Below, piece after piece: positions 28,127-37,682 of a stretch of 64,000 nucleotides of DNA (position 1 is the stretch's first letter; the number at the start of each line of letters is the position of its first letter). The stretch is from an uncultured Cyclobacteriaceae bacterium (GTDB lineage: Bacteria > Bacteroidota > Bacteroidia > Cytophagales > Cyclobacteriaceae). Location: NCBI GenBank assembly GCA_937146645.1, contig CAKZRQ010000030.1:1-64000 (forward strand), in the 5' to 3' direction. The notes beneath the pieces were generated by a model. That model did no database searches, was not told where the DNA came from, and saw nothing but the letters and a program-made list of their open reading frames with translations. A program made the position numbers and the translations under genes.

Positions 28127-28181
28127 TTTAAATATATTTGAACAAACGAATATGCAATTTTTTAAAGCGGACCTTATCCAT

Positions 28182-28189
28182 TAGCTTTG
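28182..28189 (+). promoter_or_regulatory. putative sucA promoter -7 box
   Basis: TAGCTTTG fits TAnnTTTG, with TTT 19 bases upstream at the -33 position. It lies 20 bases before the ATG at 28210 and inside the longer reading frame, so it supports the shorter start. Confidence 0.4.
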
Positions 28190-28209
28190 GCAACTCCAAA
28201 TATGACGGC

Positions 28210-30993
28210 ATGGATAAATTTTCATACATCGCAAATGCACATGTGAGCTATATCGATGAGCTCTATCAAAACTACAAGGAAGACGCAGATTCAATAGATC
28301 AAAGTTGGAAAGAATTTTTTGATGGGTTTGATTTTGCCTTAACTAATTATGGAGACGAAGAAGGTGTAATTGCCACTTCATCTTCTAACGGAAAGAGTGG
28401 GGCTCTAGCTACTCCTGGGACTATCATGGACATGGAGCAGCTTCCAAAGGAAATCAAAGTTCGTGCTCTCATTCATGCTTATCGTTCCAGAGCCCACTTG
28501 AGATCCACAACTAACCCTGTCCGACAAAGGAGGGATAGAAAGGCACTTTTGGATATAGATGATTTTGGATTAGGTAAAGAAGATTTAAATACTGTTTTCC
28601 AAGCCGGTAATGAAATCGGAATCGGTGACGCCAAACTATCGGATATCGTTGAAGCTCTTGAAAAGATTTATATCAGATCGATAGGTTTCGAGTATTTATC
28701 CATCCGTGACCCAGAGATGCTCGACTGGTTCAAGAATAAAGTGGAGAAAGAATCCCTTGCTTTTGATCCAACTGAAGAATATAAAAAGCGAATTCTCTTC
28801 AAGCTTAACCAAGCCGTAGTTTTTGAAAATTTTCTTCATACTAAATACCTAGGCCAGAAACGATTCTCTTTGGAAGGTGGAGAAAGCACCATTCCATTCT
28901 TAGATGCCGTAATCAATAAGTCTACGGATCTTGGAGTCGAGGAAGCCATGATCGGTATGGCTCACCGTGGAAGGCTAAATGTCCTTGCCAACGTAATGGG
29001 GAAAACGTATGAACAAATTTTCTCTGAATTCGAAGGAACGGCTAAGCCAGATCTCACAATGGGTGATGGTGATGTTAAATATCACATGGGGTATTCCAGT
29101 GATATAGTTACCCCTAATGGTGGAAAAGTTCGATTGAAGTTAGCACCAAATCCTTCGCATCTTGAGGCTGTTAACCCGGTGGTTGAAGGATTTATGAGAG
29201 CGAAGATTGATCATGAATTTGATGGTGATCAGAAGAAGGTGCTCCCAATATTAATCCATGGTGATGCCGCCGTTGCGGGTCAAGGGATCGTCTATGAAGT
29301 TACACAGATGGCTCAGCTTAAGGGATATAATACTGGAGGAACCATCCATTTTGTAATCAATAATCAGGTTGGTTTTACCACTGATTTTGATGATGCCAGA
29401 AGTTCGATCTATTGTACAGATGTTGCAAAGATTATTGATGCACCAGTAATTCACGTGAACGGAGACGACGCCGAGGCTGTAGTTTTTGCTGCAAATCTTG
29501 CGGCTGAATTCAGGCATAAATTCAACAAGGATATTTTTGTCGATATGGTGTGTTACAGACGCCATGGCCATAATGAGTCCGATGAGCCAAAGTTCACTCA
29601 GCCCGAACTTTATAACGTTATTTCAAAGCATCCTAATCCAAGGGAGGTCTATACTAAGAAGCTGACTGAAAGAGGTGATTTGGATCGGCAGATCGCTACT
29701 CAGATGGACAAAGAATTCCGAAAGCTTCTCCAAGATCGATTGAACCTGGTGAAGGAGAAACCTCTTCCATATCAAGCGACGAAGTTTGAGAGAGAGTGGG
29801 GTTCATTAAGAAGGTCTACTCCTGAGGATTTCGATCAATCTCCTGAAACTGGTATGAAGGAGTCTGATGTAAACGTGGTTGCTGAGGCACTCACTACTTT
29901 GCCGCAAGGCTTCAAACCGATCAAGCAGATAGAAGTTCAGATGCGACAGAGGAAGGACATGTTCTTTAACTCAAAGCAACTGAATTGGGCCGGGGCCGAG
30001 CTTTTGGCTTATGGTTCTTTGCTTCTGGAAGGTAAAACTGTAAGACTTACTGGTCAGGATTGTCAACGGGGAACATTTTCCCATCGTCATGCGGTGCTTC
30101 ATGACGCGACTAGTAATGAGCCATTCAACTCTCTGAAGGAAATGAAGGAGAGAAAAGGTGATTTTTATATCTATAATTCATTGCTCTCTGAATATGCTGT
30201 TCTCGGATTTGAGTATGGATATGGAATGGCAAATCCCAACTCTTTAACTATTTGGGAGGCGCAGTTTGGAGATTTTGCTAATGGCGCTCAGACCATGATT
30301 GACCAGTTCATTTCTTCTGGTGAATCTAAGTGGCAAAAAATGAACGGTTTGGTCATGCTCCTACCTCATGGGTATGAAGGTCAGGGACCAGAGCATTCCA
30401 ATGCTCGACCAGAGAGATTTTTGCAGTTATCTGCTGAGTATAACATGGTAGTGGCTAATGTCACTTCACCGTCAAATTTCTTCCATTTACTGAGACGACA
30501 GCTCACCTGGGAATTTAGAAAACCATGCGTAGTCATGTCGCCAAAGTCTCTTCTAAGACATCCAAAGGTAGTTTCACCGATTGACGAATTCACTTCAGGT
30601 TCATTCCAAGAGGTCATTCCTGACTCTGTTACAGTGAAGAAAGATACCAAAAGAGTGATTCTTTGTACCGGAAAGATTTATTACGATCTGGAAGAGGCAA
30701 GAGAAAAGGAGAATATAAAGGATGTTGCCATCGTAAGAATAGAACAATTGCACCCTCTTCCTAAAAAGCAGATAAAGAAAGTCCTTCAGTCCTATAAAAA
30801 TGCAGAAGTAGTCTGGGTACAGGAAGAACCAGAAAATATGGGAGCTTGGGGATATATGCTTCGGATGCTTTACAAAGAGATACCTATGAAGGTCATCGCA
30901 AGAAAAATGAGCGCATCTCCAGCAACCGGATACAATAAAGTCCATGTCGAAGAGCAGAAAGGCATTGTCAAGGAAGCACTCAGCACCAAATAA
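28210..30993 (+). CDS. sucA: 2-oxoglutarate dehydrogenase E1 component
   Basis: Thiamine-diphosphate E1 subunit of the 2-oxoglutarate dehydrogenase complex in the TCA cycle. With ATG 28210 the protein has 927 residues, as in other SucA. The N-terminal E2-binding helix HVSYIDELYQNYKEDADS is followed by GMAHRGRLNVLANVMGK, then HMGYSSDIVT, GDAAVAGQGIVYEV, YRRHGHNESDEPKFTQP and the transketolase-like EYAVLGFEYGYG, PHGYEGQGPEHSNARPERF. The frame runs upstream to 28138, but a promoter box falls in it and the E1 family starts near MDKFSYIANA. First gene of the sucA-odhB-lpdA cluster. Confidence 0.96.
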   Translation: MDKFSYIANAHVSYIDELYQNYKEDADSIDQSWKEFFDGFDFALTNYGDEEGVIATSSSNGKSGALATPGTIMDMEQLPKEIKVRALIHAYRSRAHLRSTTNPVRQRRDRKALLDIDDFGLGKEDLNTVFQAGNEIGIGDAKLSDIVEALEKIYIRSIGFEYLSIRDPEMLDWFKNKVEKESLAFDPTEEYKKRILFKLNQAVVFENFLHTKYLGQKRFSLEGGESTIPFLDAVINKSTDLGVEEAMIGMAHRGRLNVLANVMGKTYEQIFSEFEGTAKPDLTMGDGDVKYHMGYSSDIVTPNGGKVRLKLAPNPSHLEAVNPVVEGFMRAKIDHEFDGDQKKVLPILIHGDAAVAGQGIVYEVTQMAQLKGYNTGGTIHFVINNQVGFTTDFDDARSSIYCTDVAKIIDAPVIHVNGDDAEAVVFAANLAAEFRHKFNKDIFVDMVCYRRHGHNESDEPKFTQPELYNVISKHPNPREVYTKKLTERGDLDRQIATQMDKEFRKLLQDRLNLVKEKPLPYQATKFEREWGSLRRSTPEDFDQSPETGMKESDVNVVAEALTTLPQGFKPIKQIEVQMRQRKDMFFNSKQLNWAGAELLAYGSLLLEGKTVRLTGQDCQRGTFSHRHAVLHDATSNEPFNSLKEMKERKGDFYIYNSLLSEYAVLGFEYGYGMANPNSLTIWEAQFGDFANGAQTMIDQFISSGESKWQKMNGLVMLLPHGYEGQGPEHSNARPERFLQLSAEYNMVVANVTSPSNFFHLLRRQLTWEFRKPCVVMSPKSLLRHPKVVSPIDEFTSGSFQEVIPDSVTVKKDTKRVILCTGKIYYDLEEAREKENIKDVAIVRIEQLHPLPKKQIKKVLQSYKNAEVVWVQEEPENMGAWGYMLRMLYKEIPMKVIARKMSASPATGYNKVHVEEQKGIVKEALSTK

Positions 30994-31054
30994 AATTATA
31001 AACCCGAAATCTATTTGCTTTCAGCAAAGCTGGAACCATCAAAAATAAAGTCAG

Positions 31055-32593
31055 ATGAGCAAAGAAATTAAAGTACCCACGGTCGGTGAATCGATCACGG
31101 AAGTCACAGTAGGACAGTGGTTCAAACAAGATGGAGACCATGTGGAAATGGATGAAGTTTTGTGCGAGCTTGAATCCGATAAAGCCACCTTTGAGCTCCC
31201 AGCGGAAGCAAGTGGAATTTTGAGGATTGTGGCGCAAGAAGGAGATACTCTTGAAATTGGAGCACTGATTTGTAGTATTGATGAATCTGGAGTGGATACG
31301 GAACCAGCACCATCTTCTACCCCTACCGAAAAGGCTCCAGCACCTGTCGAGGCAAAGGCTGAAGCACCTAAACCTAGTGGTGAGATAAAGGAGATGGTTG
31401 TCCCAACCGTCGGTGAATCTATTACGGAAGTTACTTTGGCTAACTGGTTGAAGAGCGACGGAGATTACATTGAGTTGGATGAAATCATTGCTGAGGTAGA
31501 TTCGGATAAGGCCACCTTTGAGCTTCCAGCTGAAGCAAATGGAATTTTAAGACATGTCGCACAGGAAGGTGATACCTTAGAAATAGGAGGGTTGATTTGT
31601 AAGATTGAAGTGATGGATACCGCTCCGGAGCAGGTCTCAGAACCTGCGTCAAGCGCTGAGCCAGCTTCAGCCCCAGCTCCTGAGAATAAAGAATCATATG
31701 CCACTGGTCATGCTTCTCCGGCTGCCGCCAAAATATTGGCAGAAAAAGGAATTTCGGCAGATGCAGTGAAGGGCACAGGAGTAGATGGTAGAATTACTAA
31801 GGAGGATGCACAAGCTGCGCAAAAACCAGCTGCTCCAAAAGCCAGTGCGCCAGCTCCGGCACCAACTCCGGAAGCCATTCATGTCCCCGGGTCAAGGAAC
31901 GAAAGAAGAGAAAGAATGTCTTCTCTAAGAAAGACAGTCTCAAGAAGATTGGTCTCAGTTAAAAATGAGACTGCCATGCTCACCACTTTCAATGAAGTGA
32001 ACATGAAGCCGATTATGGACTTGAGGAAGAAATTCAAGGAGCAGTTCAAAGAAAAGCATGGGGTAGGACTTGGTTTCATGTCTTTCTTCACCAAAGCGGT
32101 TTGTGTTGCCTTACAAGAATGGCCTGCTGTTAATGCGAAGATCGATGGGAATGAAATGGTTTTCAATGACTATTGTGACATCTCCATTGCAGTTTCTGCA
32201 CCAAAGGGACTTGTAGTTCCTGTGATTAGAAATGCAGAGTCTATGACATTTGATCAGATTGAAAAGGAGGTCGTGAGATTGGCTACCAAAGCACGTGATA
32301 ATAAGCTCACTATCGAAGAGATGACTGGAGGAACATTCACTTTGACTAATGGTGGCATCTTTGGCTCCATGATGTCAACTCCAATCATCAATGCCCCTCA
32401 ATCGGCAATTCTTGGTATGCATAATATCGTTCAGAGACCGATGGCTGTTGATGGTGAAGTAGTAATCCTTCCGATGATGTACATCGCCCTTTCTTATGAT
32501 CATAGAATCATCGATGGTCGAGAATCCGTGAGCTTCCTGGTCAGAGTAAAGGAGCTTCTAGAAGATCCGACAAGACTACTTTTCGGAGTCTAA
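31055..32593 (+). CDS. odhB: dihydrolipoyllysine succinyltransferase (E2) with two lipoyl domains
   Basis: E2 core of the 2-oxoglutarate dehydrogenase complex, 512 residues. Two lipoyl domains occur in tandem: about 3-76 (lipoylated K43 in [11 protein letters not shown]) and about 113-186 (K152 in [11 protein letters not shown]). They are joined by Pro/Ala linkers. A peripheral subunit-binding domain follows at about 215-252 ([32 protein letters not shown]), then the catalytic domain with H483 and D487 in [17 protein letters not shown]. coli SucB has one lipoyl domain; duplication is seen in some other phyla. The gene starts 61 bp after sucA and is followed by lpdA. Confidence 0.95.
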
Positions 32594-32629
32594 TTGTTCC
32601 AAAATCGAAAATCAAAAATCTGAAATAGA

Positions 32630-34027
32630 ATGTACGACGTCATAGTAATTGGATCTGGGCCTGGAGGATATGTTGCGGCGATTCGTTGCGCTCAGCTAGG
32701 AATGAAGACTGCCATAATTGAGAAGTATCCGACTCTTGGAGGTACATGCCTGAATGTTGGCTGTATTCCCTCTAAGGCTTTACTTGATTCCTCTGAGCAT
32801 TATCATAATGCAGCCCACACATTCAAAACGCATGGAATTAACCTGAGCAATTTGAAGGTTGACCTAAAGCAAATGATTGCCAGAAAGGATGATGTGGTGA
32901 AGCAGAATGTAGATGGGATTTCCTATTTGATGAAGAAGAATAAAATCGATGTTCATCAAGGAATGGGTTCATTTGTAGACGCTACCACCGTGAAAGTGAC
33001 CAAAGATGATGGTTCTTCGGAGCAGATTCAAGGTAAGAACATCATTATTGCCACAGGCTCAAAGCCAGCAAATCTTCCTTTCATTGATCTCGACAAAGAA
33101 AGAATAATTACCTCGACTGAAGCTCTGAAAATGAAGGAAATCCCGAAGCACCTGATCATTATCGGAGGAGGTGTGATCGGAATGGAATTAGGTTCGGTTT
33201 ATGGAAGAATGGGCGCCAAAGTATCTGTGGTTGAATTTATGGATGGTCTCATTCCGTCCATGGACAAGACCATGGGCAAAGAACTTCAGAAGTCTTTGAA
33301 GAAACTTGGCTTTGACTTTTATCTCAAGCATAAAGTTACTGGAGTAACTCGCAAGGGTAAATCAGTGAAGGTAGTTGCCGAGAACTCCAAAGGCGAATCT
33401 GTGGAAATTGATGGTGATTACGTTTTGGTTTCCATTGGTAGAAGGCCCTATACGGATGGACTGAATGTAGAGGCAGCGGGAGTTAAACTTACCGATCGCG
33501 GTCAGGTGGAGGTGAATGATCATCTTCAGACTTCTGTTCCGAACATTTATGCGATAGGTGATGTGGTAAAAGGAGCAATGCTAGCTCACAAAGCTGAGGA
33601 AGAAGGAACCTTGGTTGCGGAACAACTCGCAGGTCAAAAGCCTCATATCAATTATAATTTGATTCCAGGTGTCGTGTACACCTGGCCAGAAGTAGCGTCT
33701 GTAGGGTTCACTGAGGAGCAATTGAAGGAGCAAGGCAAGAAATATAAGACAGGGAAATTCCCATTTATGGCTTCTGGGAGAGCTCGGGCTTCTATGGATA
33801 CGGATGGGGTAATAAAAGTTCTTGCAGATGCTACAACAGATGAAATTTTGGGCGTTCATATGATAGGACCTAGAACAGCTGATATGATTGCGGAAGCCGT
33901 AGTGGCGATGGAATACAGAGCCTCTGCCGAAGACATTGCAAGGATGTCTCATGCTCACCCCACTTATACCGAAGCGTTTAGAGAGGCTTGTCTGGCGGCG
34001 ACCGATAATCGAGCCATTCATATTTGA
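32630..34027 (+). CDS. lpdA: dihydrolipoyl dehydrogenase (E3)
   Basis: FAD flavoprotein reoxidising dihydrolipoamide for the dehydrogenase complexes; 465 residues. GSGPGGYVAAIR binds FAD, redox cysteines C40 and C45 lie in GGTCLNVGCIPSKALL, GGGVIGMELGSVYGRMGA binds NAD, and YAIGDVVKGAMLAHKAEEEG is the second FAD motif. The C-terminal HAHPTYTEAF provides the His-Glu pair. It completes the sucA-odhB-lpdA set and may also serve pyruvate dehydrogenase and glycine cleavage. The 36 bp spacer before it contains the low-complexity run aaaatcgaaaatcaaaaatc. A terminator follows at 34050. Confidence 0.96.
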   Translation: MYDVIVIGSGPGGYVAAIRCAQLGMKTAIIEKYPTLGGTCLNVGCIPSKALLDSSEHYHNAAHTFKTHGINLSNLKVDLKQMIARKDDVVKQNVDGISYLMKKNKIDVHQGMGSFVDATTVKVTKDDGSSEQIQGKNIIIATGSKPANLPFIDLDKERIITSTEALKMKEIPKHLIIIGGGVIGMELGSVYGRMGAKVSVVEFMDGLIPSMDKTMGKELQKSLKKLGFDFYLKHKVTGVTRKGKSVKVVAENSKGESVEIDGDYVLVSIGRRPYTDGLNVEAAGVKLTDRGQVEVNDHLQTSVPNIYAIGDVVKGAMLAHKAEEEGTLVAEQLAGQKPHINYNLIPGVVYTWPEVASVGFTEEQLKEQGKKYKTGKFPFMASGRARASMDTDGVIKVLADATTDEILGVHMIGPRTADMIAEAVVAMEYRASAEDIARMSHAHPTYTEAFREACLAATDNRAIHI

Positions 34028-34049
34028 TTCGAATCAAACAAGTTTTCAT

Positions 34050-34080
34050 AGCCATCTCAGAGTTCTGGGATGGCTTTTTC
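34050..34080 (+). terminator. Rho-independent terminator after lpdA
   Basis: The stem agccatctcag (34050-34060) and ctgggatggct (34065-34075) pairs with one G-T wobble around the loop agtt and is followed by TTTTTC. Confidence 0.85.
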
Positions 34081-34109
34081 TTTTACCGATAAATGGGTTA
34101 TTTAAAAAG

Positions 34110-34883
34110 ATGAAATTTAAAATTGCGATGATTGGGGCAGGGAATGTCGCATGGCATTTGGCGCCGGCACTTGAAGATGCAGGTCATGATTTAGTAGAGG
34201 TTTATGCGCGGAGCGCCAAAGCCGCCGATCAAATAGCCAGTAGGCTGTATGCGGCAGAAATCAAGACAGACTTGGATTTTTCTGAAAGCAAAGCCACCGT
34301 GTTCATTATTTCAGTCAGCGATGGGGCTATTCAGGAAATCGCAGATGAGATTATTTTGCCAGAAAGAGCCATATTGATCCATACTTCAGGAACAGTACCT
34401 TTAGATGTTCTCAATTATAGTTCGGCAACCTTTGCAGGTGTTTTTTATCCCTTACAAACTTTTTCTAAGGGGAAGGAGATGGATATTTCAGAAGTGCCTT
34501 TTTTGATCGAATCTGAGGATCAGGAAATTTTGAGAAGGTTAAAGCTCCTCGCAAAGTCATTGAAATCTCAAGCGTATCCTATTCGATCGAAGGACAGGCA
34601 AGCTGTTCATGTGGCTGCAGTTTTTGCAAGTAATTTTTCCAACCACATGCTTAGAATTGCTGAAGAAGTGATGCAAAGACAGGGGCTTGACTATGAAATG
34701 CTTAAACCCCTGATTATTGAGACTATTTCCAAAAGTCTACAAATAGGAGCGAAGCGGGCACAGACAGGACCTGCGAGTCGAGAAGATTACGAAACCCTCG
34801 ATGAACACTATCATTTCCTCAGCTACAATCCCGAAATAGCAGAGATTTATAAAATCATTTCAAATGATATTATTGATAGTTGA
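34110..34883 (+). CDS. Rossmann-fold / DUF2520 protein (F420-oxidoreductase-like)
   Basis: A 257-residue cytoplasmic protein with an N-terminal NAD(P)-binding Rossmann domain (KFKIAMIGAGNVAWHLAPAL) and a C-terminal all-helical DUF2520 domain (about 130-250; PIRSKDRQAVHVAAVFASNF, YEMLKPLIIETISKSLQIG). The fold is that of 6-phosphogluconate dehydrogenase-like oxidoreductases. No substrate has been assigned to the family that I know of, though related proteins act in coenzyme-A or lipid precursor pathways. The start at 34110 is the first Met with the GAGN loop in the right place; an open extension back into lpdA has no support. It is the last core gene before the DUF2589-like cassette. Confidence 0.85.
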   Translation: MKFKIAMIGAGNVAWHLAPALEDAGHDLVEVYARSAKAADQIASRLYAAEIKTDLDFSESKATVFIISVSDGAIQEIADEIILPERAILIHTSGTVPLDVLNYSSATFAGVFYPLQTFSKGKEMDISEVPFLIESEDQEILRRLKLLAKSLKSQAYPIRSKDRQAVHVAAVFASNFSNHMLRIAEEVMQRQGLDYEMLKPLIIETISKSLQIGAKRAQTGPASREDYETLDEHYHFLSYNPEIAEIYKIISNDIIDS

Positions 34884-34936
34884 TAGTCAGAAAGTTGCAT
34901 TTCACTAGAAATATTAGAAGAAAAAATTGTCTTAAA

Positions 34937-34967
34937 TTGATAAAATGATTTAAAGTGCTTATATTCA
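34937..34967 (+). promoter_or_regulatory. possible promoter of the DUF2589-like cassette
   Basis: TTG at 34937-34939 and TATATTCA at 34960-34967, spaced by 20 bases, match the Bacteroidota TTG/TAnnTTTG layout with two mismatches in the -7 box. Transcription would start near 34973, inside the hairpin described next. Confidence 0.3.
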
Positions 34968-34970
34968 ATT

Positions 34971-34998
34971 AATTAGGATAAGCCTAATTCTTTTTTTC
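34971..34998 (+). terminator. hairpin with T-run in front of the DUF2589-like cassette
   Basis: The 7 bp stem aattagg/cctaatt (34971-34977, 34983-34989) with loop ataag is followed by ctttttttc. It may terminate the DUF2520 transcript, 88 bp after its stop. If the TTG-20-TATATTCA promoter is real, the hairpin lies at the transcript's very 5' end and could modulate the cassette. Confidence 0.5.
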
Positions 34999-35016
34999 AC
35001 TTCAAATCTTTTTATT

Positions 35017-35655
35017 ATGAGTTACGTAAATCGTACCCTCAGGTCCATTCCATTTGGCCGGATCATCGGCGGACCAATGATAGCAGCTATTCATTCGCAA
35101 GCACTCGCTGCGAAATCTACCGTAAACTTCATTAAGGAAGTTGGCTTCAAAGCCTCACCACCCGAACTTAATGGTGAGCAAGATGAAGATATCGGTGATG
35201 TTAGAAATGTCACTTTTAAGTACTCTCGAAAAACGGCTGGAGGTAGTGTCGAGGATAATGATGCAGGAGAGGAGAATGTATCTTTGACTGTACCTATTTT
35301 AACAATTGTCCCAATTCCTTTTATTAGGATTGAGGAGATGACAATTCAATTCACCGCTAATATTACAGAGCAGCAAGAATTTCGAAGAGGAAGTGCATCC
35401 AGTGGATCTGTTGCAACGGATACCACTATGAATTTCAAGGCAGGAGGGTTCTTTTCTCCAGTGAAATTTAATCTGAACGCGAAGGTATCGACCCGGAACA
35501 ATTGGAGTAGTTACCAAAGTAACAAAGTAAATACTGCTACTCAGTATCAAATGGATGTAAAGGTAAAAGCAGTTCAAGATGAAATGCCAGCAGGTCTAGC
35601 TAAAATCCTCGGTATAATGGAAGAGGCTATTCTTGAGAAACCAGCCACACCTTAA
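35017..35655 (+). CDS. DUF2589-like protein, paralogue 1
   Basis: A 212-residue protein matching what I recall of DUF2589, a family with no known function. Layout: an N-terminal Gly/Ala-rich amphipathic helix at about 16-44 (GGPMIAAIHSQALAAKSTV, ending FIKEVGF); beta strand VRNVTFKYSR at 62-71; the hallmark hydrophobic strand pair PILTIVPIPFIRIEEMTIQF at 93-112; a polar Ser/Gly-rich loop at about 124-136; and a C-terminal QYQMDVKVKAVQDEMPAGLA followed by a helix. No signal peptide, Cys or catalytic motif is seen. It heads a tight operon with three other genes (18, 10 and -1 bp gaps). The paralogue at 36812 shares all four blocks. Confidence 0.8.
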   Translation: MSYVNRTLRSIPFGRIIGGPMIAAIHSQALAAKSTVNFIKEVGFKASPPELNGEQDEDIGDVRNVTFKYSRKTAGGSVEDNDAGEENVSLTVPILTIVPIPFIRIEEMTIQFTANITEQQEFRRGSASSGSVATDTTMNFKAGGFFSPVKFNLNAKVSTRNNWSSYQSNKVNTATQYQMDVKVKAVQDEMPAGLAKILGIMEEAILEKPATP

Positions 35656-35673
35656 TTTTTTGTTTTATAAGCT

Positions 35674-36801
35674 ATGAGCCAGCTTAATAGCATTATTGCG
35701 TCCGTACTTAGCGACATTAATGAGGCTAAGGCAAAAGCTGATTTGACTTCAAGCGAACTCGCCAAGACATACGCGGCTGATAAAGTGCTTCGATATTTCC
35801 CTGTTCCACGGATCAACATAGAAAATCTTGAAGTGGAAATTAAATATGCCGTGAATTCTGTGGAAGAGAAGCCTGTGGACAACGCTTCTACCCGTAAGAA
35901 GATCAACGACTTCATTCAAGTTTTTAGTGATGAAACATCTGTAGCTGTTAAGAAAGCAGTAGAGAATGTCACGAAGAACAATGAACTTTTTAAAGAAGTG
36001 AGTTCAGTGTACCCTTCAAAAGAATGGGAAGCTTCCTTAAAGGAAAAGATGGCAGATGTACTTGTCAAGAGTTTCAGACCAAATAACCCTTCTAAGACAA
36101 AAGATTTAGCATTGAGTGGATTGAAGACTGCGATACCAGATCTACTCCCGGTGGTAAAACGATCATCTTCCATGGCAATAGTTCCTACCGAAAAAGGAGA
36201 CTTTCAAATAATGGGCATAGATGATGATGGTAAATCTGAGTTTCTTATTGATAAAAAATACGTCAGTGAGGTGGATGCGCTCAAAGATGCAAAAGCATTA
36301 ACGACTTCATTAAAATCCAAAAAAGTAGAGGTTACTTCTGTCAAGACAGATGAAATTAAGAAAGTGGATATTGGGGCTTTGAAGGCTGGAAACCGGACTT
36401 TCAATGTTCTCTTGGGAGCTAAAAAGTTTAACGATCCAAAACCTAAAGCTAGTCTCGAAAAAGCTATTGGTGTGAAGGCTGAATTTTTAAATCAGCCTCG
36501 GAAAGAGGTTCCGAATTGGCTAAAGGCATCCAAACCTGCTTCTGCAAATGTTGATCCCGAGAAGTTTGAAGAAGATCTCACACTAAAAATCGCTACTGAA
36601 AAAGTGATTAGTGAAAGGCTGCCTCTCTTGGAACAAGGAATTAACGATATCATGTCTAAGAACGCCATAACCGTTATGAATGTAAATGTTGATAGCGAAT
36701 CGATAAAAAACGCTCAACCTGAAACAGTCAGTACTATTAAGTTTTCACTTAGTGCGCAAGACTTCACACTTTTAGACGATGATCAAGAACCCATTCTTTA
36801 A
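35674..36801 (+). CDS. 375-residue unknown protein of the DUF2589-like cassette
   Basis: Family not recognised. An N-terminal helical part (1-40: SQLNSIIASVLSDINEAKAK) leads into YFPVPRINIENLEVEIKYAV at 41-60. That segment resembles the PIPFIRIEEMTIQF strand of the two flanking DUF2589-like proteins (P-I/V-P then alternating hydrophobics). A long, lysine-rich, mostly helical middle (about 65-325) follows. The C-terminus 333-368 returns to strand-like TVMNVNVDSES and TVSTIKFSLSAQDFTLLDDD. No signal, membrane helix or enzyme motif is visible. A strand-rich core split by a large helical insertion is my inference. It lies 18 bp after paralogue 1 and 10 bp before paralogue 2. Confidence 0.7.
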   Translation: MSQLNSIIASVLSDINEAKAKADLTSSELAKTYAADKVLRYFPVPRINIENLEVEIKYAVNSVEEKPVDNASTRKKINDFIQVFSDETSVAVKKAVENVTKNNELFKEVSSVYPSKEWEASLKEKMADVLVKSFRPNNPSKTKDLALSGLKTAIPDLLPVVKRSSSMAIVPTEKGDFQIMGIDDDGKSEFLIDKKYVSEVDALKDAKALTTSLKSKKVEVTSVKTDEIKKVDIGALKAGNRTFNVLLGAKKFNDPKPKASLEKAIGVKAEFLNQPRKEVPNWLKASKPASANVDPEKFEEDLTLKIATEKVISERLPLLEQGINDIMSKNAITVMNVNVDSESIKNAQPETVSTIKFSLSAQDFTLLDDDQEPIL

Positions 36802-36811
36802 TTAAATCAAA

Positions 36812-37354
36812 ATGATCACACCAAAATATATTTCTGACTTGCTAGGAGCACCGATGGCTGCGGTAGTGCAGGCCGAGGCGATAGCAGCGAAGGCTACAGC
36901 TGAATTTATTCAAGAGGTAGGTTTTTCGAATACTGATCTAAATGAAGATGGTGACTTTGGGACGGTTCGTAACGTAACGTTTTCCTATAATAGGATTGAG
37001 GCAGATGGACAAGCTAGGATGACTAATATCTCAGTCCCACTTTTAACGGTCATTCCAATTCCTTCATTAAAGGTAGCGGAGGCAGAAATTGAATTTGACC
37101 TTGCATTAAGCCAACCCAACCAGAGTACTGAGGGAGGGGAATCCTCTTCTGGTTCAAAGAAGAGATTACCATTTTTGAGTAAATCCCTGAGGCTTAAAGC
37201 GATTATTGGAAAGAAGGCGCAAGAAGGAAAGTCGAATACTACTAATTCTGCTACAGCAAATATGAATGTAAAAATTAGATTGCAACAGGCCGAACCTACA
37301 ATCGGGATGGTTCAGCTATTGAATATTCTAGACAGCGCAAATAAAGAGGAATAA
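36812..37354 (+). CDS. DUF2589-like protein, paralogue 2
   Basis: A 180-residue paralogue of the protein at 35017. Shared blocks: Ala-rich helix LLGAPMAAVVQAEAIAAKAT and EFIQEVGF at 10-38; VRNVTFSYNR at 52-61; SVPLLTVIPIPSLKVAEAEI at 75-94; polar loop NQSTEGGESSSGSKK; and C-terminal NSATANMNVKIRLQQAEPT followed by a final helix MVQLLNIL. It is shorter between the strand pair and the C-terminal block. No signal peptide, cysteines or catalytic residues. The stop overlaps the ATG of the next gene (TAATG), so the two are translationally coupled. Confidence 0.8.
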   Translation: MITPKYISDLLGAPMAAVVQAEAIAAKATAEFIQEVGFSNTDLNEDGDFGTVRNVTFSYNRIEADGQARMTNISVPLLTVIPIPSLKVAEAEIEFDLALSQPNQSTEGGESSSGSKKRLPFLSKSLRLKAIIGKKAQEGKSNTTNSATANMNVKIRLQQAEPTIGMVQLLNILDSANKEE

Positions 37355-37677
37355 TGCCTAATTGGTTTAGTGTCGTTAAGGAAAAAGTATTGAATTTCTT
37401 CTCAGTGAAGAAGAGTCCTGCAGGTGACTCCTCTGAAGTTGAAAAAACTCCGCAGGTAGAAATATCAAGGCAACCAGGTCTCTCTTGTCCAGAGTGCGGT
37501 ACAAAGCTCTTTATAACAATGGAATCCCTTTTGAATTACCTCCCTGTTCAATGCCATGGATGTGGGCTTGAACTAACGATTGATCGAGAGAAATCAAAGA
37601 GTTCAATTGAATCATTAAGGAAACTGAAGATGGGCCTTGATGAGGCAGAAAGTGTTAAGCAGAGAGGTCAACTTTAG
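37354..37677 (+). CDS. small zinc-ribbon protein of the DUF2589-like cassette
   Basis: A 107-residue protein with four cysteines in two CxxC pairs (C45/C48 in LSCPECGTKL, C67/C70 in QCHGCGLEL), a zinc-ribbon layout. An N-terminal amphipathic helix (NWFSVVKEKVLNFFSVK) could bind a membrane or a partner; a charged linker and a C-terminal helix (SSIESLRKLKMGLDEAES) complete it. A ribbon next to a short helix suggests an adaptor rather than an enzyme. The start overlaps the preceding stop by one base. I recall no named family. It converges on the M20 gene with only 5 bp between stops and no visible terminator. Confidence 0.72.
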   Translation: MPNWFSVVKEKVLNFFSVKKSPAGDSSEVEKTPQVEISRQPGLSCPECGTKLFITMESLLNYLPVQCHGCGLELTIDREKSKSSIESLRKLKMGLDEAESVKQRGQL

Positions 37678-37682
37678 CCCTT

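Follow-up and report, generated by a model that had tools for sequence, protein, structure and literature searches.

The four genes at positions 35017-37677 of contig CAKZRQ010000030.1, from an uncultured Cyclobacteriaceae bacterium, make up, by comparison of sequences, the core of a gene system that is widespread and apparently undescribed. The whole 64,000-nucleotide stretch of DNA that was analysed is called the window. The cassette consists of four plus strand open reading frames (ORFs) in tandem, and their coordinates and spacings of 18, 10 and -1 bp agree exactly with the original prediction, which had been made from the letters of the window alone. ORF1 (35017..35655, 212 amino acids) is the upstream DUF2589 copy (D1), ORF2 (35674..36801, 375 amino acids) is a subunit whose conserved ends enclose an insert, ORF3 (36812..37354, 180 amino acids) is the downstream DUF2589 copy (D2) and ORF4 (37354..37677, 107 amino acids) is a small protein with a predicted zinc ribbon. 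This order is written D-O2-D-Zn. As to function, we tentatively propose an apparatus, docked on the membrane, by which cell-wall hydrolases are carried or released; we consider this reading possible rather than probable.

The main survey used named loci found by a DUF2589 alignment alone and covered the best 80 of 140, with window-like patterns. An ORF2-like gene was found in 75 of the 80 loci, the D-O2-D order in 68 and the D-O2-D-Zn order in 58; these counts are not corrected for relatedness and include near-identical genomes (e.g. L156, L157 and L159). They come from a hidden Markov model (HMM) search of all ORFs, and the counted loci had themselves supplied part of the sequences for the ORF2, zinc and muramidase HMMs; a greedy gene caller missed genes in GC-rich loci. 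The D-O2-D order occurs in Bacteroidota, Ignavibacteriota, Pseudomonadota, Nitrospinota, Actinomycetota, Chloroflexota, Planctomycetota, Cyanobacteriota, Bacillota and Thermodesulfobacteriota, and in three further loci without a phylum. Phyla with a single locus are less sure, because many loci are metagenome-assembled and the sole Bacillota record (L134) is titled contamination. The D-O2-D-Zn order spans eight phyla; in Actinomycetota and Chloroflexota no zinc gene was seen. Four archaeal loci have the order D-D-O2. Gaps of 60 bp or less separate 65 of 75 D-O2 pairs, 65 of 68 O2-D pairs and 57 of 61 D-Zn pairs. Because the same gene order recurs across many phyla, the cassette is not a chance arrangement, and the predicted co-occurrence of its genes was observed in related and unrelated genomes alike. 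The general interest of the system lies in this breadth, a DUF2589-ORF2-DUF2589 set in ten bacterial phyla (one from a contamination-marked contig) plus related archaeal clusters.

A second form, D-O2-helical protein, is common among unnamed Bacteroidota loci, and some Bacteroidales have six to seven DUF2589 genes around a single ORF2 (e.g. L129, L135, L137 and L138). Four of 72,556 plasmid records held a relative. The Pfam entry for DUF2589 describes proteins of unknown function, and the D-O2-D-Zn system goes beyond that family entry. No description of the DUF2589/ORF2 system and no mention of PF11655 was found in the literature searched, which mostly did not include subscription papers, where a description is possible; the one paper there that names DUF2589, PMC3949148, gives it no function, and the passage in question does not contain the D-O2-D-Zn system. 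Other genes were seen within or after some cassettes. A helix-hairpin-helix protein (by eye) lies between D1 and ORF2 at L107:2699-3355 and L111:8960-9604, and HHH_3 was matched in 2 of 148 cassette-adjacent genes. In L109, L112, L114, L116, L118 and L105, where no zinc gene was found, D2 is followed by an extra helical protein of about 170-213 amino acids whose tail looks winged-helix-like by eye. A 1398-residue SpvB/TcdB-midN/midC protein follows a D-O2-helical cassette at L084:2622-6818.

Properties of the four proteins

ORF1 and ORF3 are near full-length members of Pfam family PF11655, as predicted for two DUF2589 paralogues. ORF1 scored 95.8 bits (E 4.3e-27, profile positions 1-153 of 154) and ORF3 scored 85 bits (E 9.4e-24, positions 2-152), compared to a curated cut-off of 23 bits. 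The two proteins are 36% identical over 190 columns. Three of the sequence blocks they were said to share (FIxEVGF, VRNVTFxY and VPxLTxxPIP) are present as described, and in the last block (NxAT...V) ORF3 has one residue fewer. A tree was calculated from 78 of 103 copies (40 upstream and 38 downstream of ORF2), 25 having been dropped for their length or for lack of a domain match. The upstream and downstream labels need two changes on this tree compared to a shuffled mean of 26, and none of 500 shuffles was as low. The clade that holds all 40 upstream copies has a support of 100/100 and also takes in one long-branched downstream copy (L166); ORF1 sits in this clade and ORF3 groups with the downstream copies. 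Judged by this tree, the two DUF2589 copies are old, anciently diverged paralogues. A search of the PDB gave no sequence relative of DUF2589. In Bacteroidales such as L129, L137, L155 and similar loci, DUF2589 is fused to or beside DUF6734 in 5 of 67 long copies, and Big_1 Ig-like parts occur on DUF2589 proteins in 5 of 67.

ORF2 combines conserved ends with a variable insert. The precomputed label PF27375.1, a newer Pfam family, is carried by a 100% identical protein (P0001) and by all 56 ORF2 homologues; the PF27375 model was not among the ORF2 matches in the Pfam copy used. Neither ORF2 nor ORF4 had a Pfam or NCBIfam match above cut-off. Their best PHROG matches had E values of 0.11 and 0.002, respectively. 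The N-terminal module (35674..35883, plus strand, residues ~1-70), drawn from HHalign and the structure model, is a long helix (residues 2-35) followed by the FPVPRINIENLEVEI strand (52-67). This part is common to shorter ORF2-like proteins of many phyla, and HHalign of short against long ORF2 forms gave a probability of 99.5 over 98 columns. The C-terminal module (36664..36753, plus strand, residues ~331-360) is an alignment block with two modelled strands (331-338 and 352-359). These conserved ends are perhaps distantly DUF2589-like: HHalign of the ORF2 family against a broad DUF2589 set gave a probability of 85.6 (E 5.6e-6), while 12 other families and reversed profiles, used as controls, gave 0.4% or less.

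The inserted domain (36166..36573, plus strand, residues 165-300) is missing in L104, is a beta/gamma-crystallin in 2 of 52 ORF2-like proteins and is helical in others. The insert of the window protein is tentatively read as UPF0339/YegP-like. Foldseek on ORF2 returned nothing at an E value of 0.001 or less, and in a second look with VIA two UPF0339 structures ranked first. Compared with the UPF0339/YegP (DUF1508) fold in PDB entries 2k49 and 2k8e, the insert has 10-12% identity and a Z score in the range that the tool calls common; it differs in that ORF2 has no Pfam match and in that its domain is embedded inside another protein. Two PDB matches of the ORF2 family (E 0.028 and 0.23) were designed proteins and were taken as chance.

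ORF4 is last in the cassette, as predicted, and its sequence is that of a predicted zinc ribbon with two CxxC knuckles (CPEC-x18-CHGC, 37486..37563, plus strand, read from the sequence). CxxC-x18-CxxC with the same spacer is found in 58 of 59 homologues, a family from 59 fetched loci of which some are the same genome twice. The N-terminal stretch MPNWFSVVKEKVLNFFSV (37354..37407, plus strand) is amphipathic. The 28 long ORF4 homologues have a median hydrophobic moment of 0.43, compared to 0.24 in a background of 510 proteins with a 90% point of 0.47; the p value of 2.7e-9 is too small because the rows are related. Most of these long forms have an amphipathic start rich in Trp and Phe, L103 and L120 being among the exceptions. 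The c15 protein of gut cassettes begins in the same way (median moment 0.53, n=10), and the zinc proteins there are short. An amphipathic helix on most long homologues suggests membrane docking, and ORF4 probably touches the membrane. The cytoplasmic or membrane-associated assembly of related subunits that had been suggested for the cassette gains some support, because ORF2 may be a third relative and most of the long ORF4 homologues have an amphipathic start. That suggestion did not extend to three features: the amphipathic start of ORF4 itself, the domain inserted in ORF2 and the cell-wall enzymes found after the cassette in other loci. In the place of c15, L153:11456-11866 and L139:11543-11950 have a lipoprotein-like gene (lipobox by eye), in L153 directly before the muramidase, which could encode an immunity protein.

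Enzymes beside the core and the proposed mechanism

A peptidoglycan (PG)-directed gene lies on the cassette strand in 21 of the 80 named loci, 15 identified by the muramidase-family HMM and six more by Pfam. The six comprise a Pesticin-type lysozyme gene in L123, a LysM protein and Amidase_2 in L107, an M23 peptidase and a CHAP/PG_binding_1 protein in L111, and PG_binding_1 with an M74 part in L109, L114 and L115. M74 is above cut-off in L114 only (23.3 compared to the Pfam cut-off of 25 in L109 and L115, whose PG_binding_1 is above cut-off). L106 also has PG_binding_1 on the cassette strand. Outside the 80 loci, a phage lysozyme (L057), PG_binding_1 (L082), CHAP (L089), a subtilase of the S8 type (L079) and a trypsin-like protease (L071) were found. 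The order in gut Bacteroidales is LytTR - D - O2 - D - Zn - c15 - PG_binding_1/N-acetylmuramidase; for example, L131 gave E values of 1.3e-69 for Muramidase, 2.4e-17 for PG_binding_1 and 1.2e-15 for LytTR. PG-directed enzymes of unrelated folds are found repeatedly next to the core, in Bacteroidota as well as in Pseudomonadota and Actinomycetota.

Among 148 genes adjacent to the cassette in 79 loci, Pfam matched LytTR 12 times, PG_binding_1 nine times, Muramidase seven times and CHAP twice. None of these was among the families that reached two in 147 control genes from the same loci more than 4.5 kb away; the tallies list 25 families, and single control hits are possible. The adjacent genes were greedy calls, and the tally left out Algoriphagus/Belliella-type loci, the window and seven near-duplicates; 148 control genes were drawn and L082:2214-7055 was left out. 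A signal-like N-terminus was absent from 24 payload candidates and 14 muramidase-family proteins (overlapping sets) by a crude hydropathy window on first-start ORFs, not SignalP. The top 12-residue hydropathy was 2.01 in these proteins and 2.43-2.88 in five secreted-looking neighbours. Several candidates were not counted as payloads. NlpC/P60-, SleB-, L,D-transpeptidase- and caspase-like readings (L163, L168, L148, L127, L104, L116 and L081) were made by eye and had no significant Pfam support, L103 had PG_binding_1 at E 0.11 only, and L105 had Zincin_1 above and LysM below cut-off. Small 3' genes with His/Cys motifs look like caspase-like peptidases by eye at L081:10597-11025, L078:5631-5996 and L116:11482-12138, those of L081 and L116 having no Pfam match.

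A constant core that is sometimes followed by a signal-less cell-wall enzyme may represent an unknown release or delivery route. In the mechanism that we propose, the DUF2589-type subunits would join by their alanine-rich N-terminal helices to form one cytoplasmic hetero-oligomer, which ORF4 would dock on the inner membrane face by its amphipathic N-terminus. Judging from the other loci, the assembly would hold an exchangeable signal-less hydrolase (or protease) encoded nearby on the same strand and, on a signal, move or release it; in gut Bacteroidales the LytTR regulator would set the timing. A constant core with an exchangeable payload would give a testable answer to how signal-less PG hydrolases act.

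Several results weigh against this mechanism. First, gut-type Bacteroidota that are related to each other, some of them near-identical, provide 14 of the 21 payload loci; most of the 14 carry a LytTR regulator. Secondly, no hydrolase gene is found in the window cassette or in ten named loci of the Algoriphagus/Belliella type (L090-L098 and L121), none was recognised by eye beside the Ignavibacteria, cyanobacterial and Acetivibrio copies, and the archaeal payloads have no significant Pfam match. Third, muramidase PF11860 is only weakly enriched with DUF2589 (4 of 28 compared to 19 of 367 genomes, Fisher p 0.07) among 395 Bacteroidota genomes, the separate draws being taken as the same genomes by their handles. 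Fourth, the moment of ORF4 in the window (0.34) is not exceptional. Fifth, ORF2 against PF11655-labelled sequences, a stricter input, gave an HHalign probability of 2-7% (E 0.005-0.03), the long window-type ORF2 against DUF2589 gave 0.2 and 2.7, and PF11655 matches neither ORF2 nor, among the families listed, any of the 52 ORF2-like proteins. Lastly, the structure model of DUF2589 is poor (pLDDT 58.5, 82-row alignment), and the Foldseek hits obtained with it, the best at E 1.9, were set aside as meaningless.

The same payloads could be explained by regulated self-lysis, in which the complex opens the inner membrane of the producer and a signal-less hydrolase reaches the wall, as in a holin-endolysin pair without a recognised holin, with LytTR as the trigger in gut Bacteroidales. 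The endolysin-like payloads without signal peptides, the 12 LytTR genes among the 148 and the amphipathic N-termini of c15 and most long ORF4 forms all fit. Most archaea have no murein. The archaeal cassettes therefore speak against self-lysis, the proteases of L079 and L071 fit it less well and the Algoriphagus core has no hydrolase, and we find this explanation unlikely, though it merits consideration. Archaeal copies would argue for an enzyme aimed at other cells, with the reservation that their payloads have no Pfam identity. On the most far-reaching reading, the cassette would belong to a new class of delivery machine in bacteria and archaea, unrelated to contractile injection or known secretion, in which DUF2589-fold subunits, a swappable ORF2 display domain and a membrane-docking zinc ribbon export or inject signal-less hydrolases or proteases against other cells; this larger claim is doubtful.

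The cassette site in Algoriphagus

The genome is of the Algoriphagus type, and its nearest named relative is A. sediminis (L090), with a 99% identical D1. DUF2589 was found in 12 of 72 genomes of the genus, both copies being present in 11; in the remaining genome, G032, a single match lies at the end of a contig. Among 58 relatives, DUF2589 was found in 10 and an ORF2 match in nine (eight full length), and of nine DUF2589-carrying genomes of the genus searched for ORF2, eight had it at full length and the ninth was G032. The DUF2520-type gene that flanks the cassette occurs in 69 of the 72 genomes. DUF2589 and ORF2 lie directly downstream of it in 7 of 30 loci examined and not in the other 23, 19 of which have a convergent pirin-like gene (named by eye) immediately after it. 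Within the genus, the cassette is present or absent as a whole, and the interval 34884..37682, to which no strand applies, is absent at the same site in most congeners. Carriers (7 of 30 rows) do not form one clade on the flanking-gene tree, and their six changes are near the shuffled mean of 6.5; for these reasons the tree shows neither gain nor loss, and it is compatible with one origin.

Since the window cassette has no enzyme gene, the cargo in Algoriphagus would be the ORF2 insert itself, or encoded elsewhere, or absent. An alternative is a scaffold or stress complex at the membrane surface, whose core would work alone and for which hydrolases would be occasional passengers only. The core-only loci of Algoriphagus/Belliella and Ignavibacteria, the patchy presence in the genus and the 59 of 80 named loci without a supported PG enzyme are consistent with it, as is the up-regulation on lactate of Archaeoglobus AF0414-AF0417, called DUF2589-related in the passage of PMC3949148. 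PG enzymes of unrelated folds, which recur in three phyla and belong to families with fewer than two members among the control genes, speak against this explanation, and it seems to us rather unlikely, if well worth keeping in view. The payload-free Algoriphagus core is a clean system for asking what the core does alone. Patchy presence at one site, together with a range of lytic and proteolytic genes next to a core that stays the same, would also suit anti-phage defence by abortive infection, with hydrolases and proteases killing the infected cell. A PADLOC scan of 10 proteins gave no meaningful match (one listed hit, E 0.027), and we consider such a role improbable.

Immediately upstream of the cassette, positions 28138-34883 hold an apparent 2-oxoglutarate dehydrogenase cluster (sucA, sucB and lpd, by eye) and the DUF2520-type gene. 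The cassette stops at ORF4, and the neighbouring 3' gene is convergent and hydantoinase/amidase-like. A conserved element, TAAAGTGnTTATATTCAATT, is found at 34937-34980 upstream of ORF1 in several Algoriphagus copies (L059-L065), and the stretch after it varies in length. A sigma-70-like match (TTGATA-17-TATATT) overlaps it, with a count within chance. A hairpin 5' of ORF1 was no better than shuffles (z -0.84), and Rfam gave no match at gathering score.

Comparison with known systems

The proposed apparatus resembles phage holin-endolysin cassettes in its signal-less enzymes of muramidase, lysozyme or CHAP type, encoded nearby on the same strand. It differs in its DUF2589-type partner genes, in having no recognised holin and in being unconfirmed in viral contigs. 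A membrane-spanning holin was not visible by eye in the four cassette proteins, with no transmembrane predictor run, and the window operon, which ends at ORF4, has no endolysin gene.

Contractile injection systems and the type VI secretion system (T6SS) likewise combine a constant gene set with lytic payloads that can be exchanged. As a further explanation, the cassette could be a part or cargo adaptor of a contractile injection system or of a phage. Unlike what this would imply, the co-occurrence of DUF2589 with a sheath is not beyond chance: sheath PF04984 is found in 8 of 28 Bacteroidota genomes with DUF2589 and in 79 of 367 without it (Fisher p 0.35), and it was not matched in the genome of the window (G000). 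One of 50,697 phage records, an unannotated one, had a relative, and a pattern-based scan of viral contigs confirmed none. An injection or phage role is therefore very improbable.

A parallel to the delivery problem is found in the archaeal PG hydrolases of PMC12352652. In that paper, 67 of 210 such enzymes have a known signal peptide; those without one must leave the cell too. The word operon is absent from its text. The hydrolases were slightly enriched with sheath PF04984 (P 0.059), in contrast to DUF2589, which has no sheath association in our counts. The DUF2589 system may be a route by which archaeal PG hydrolases without a signal peptide leave the cell.

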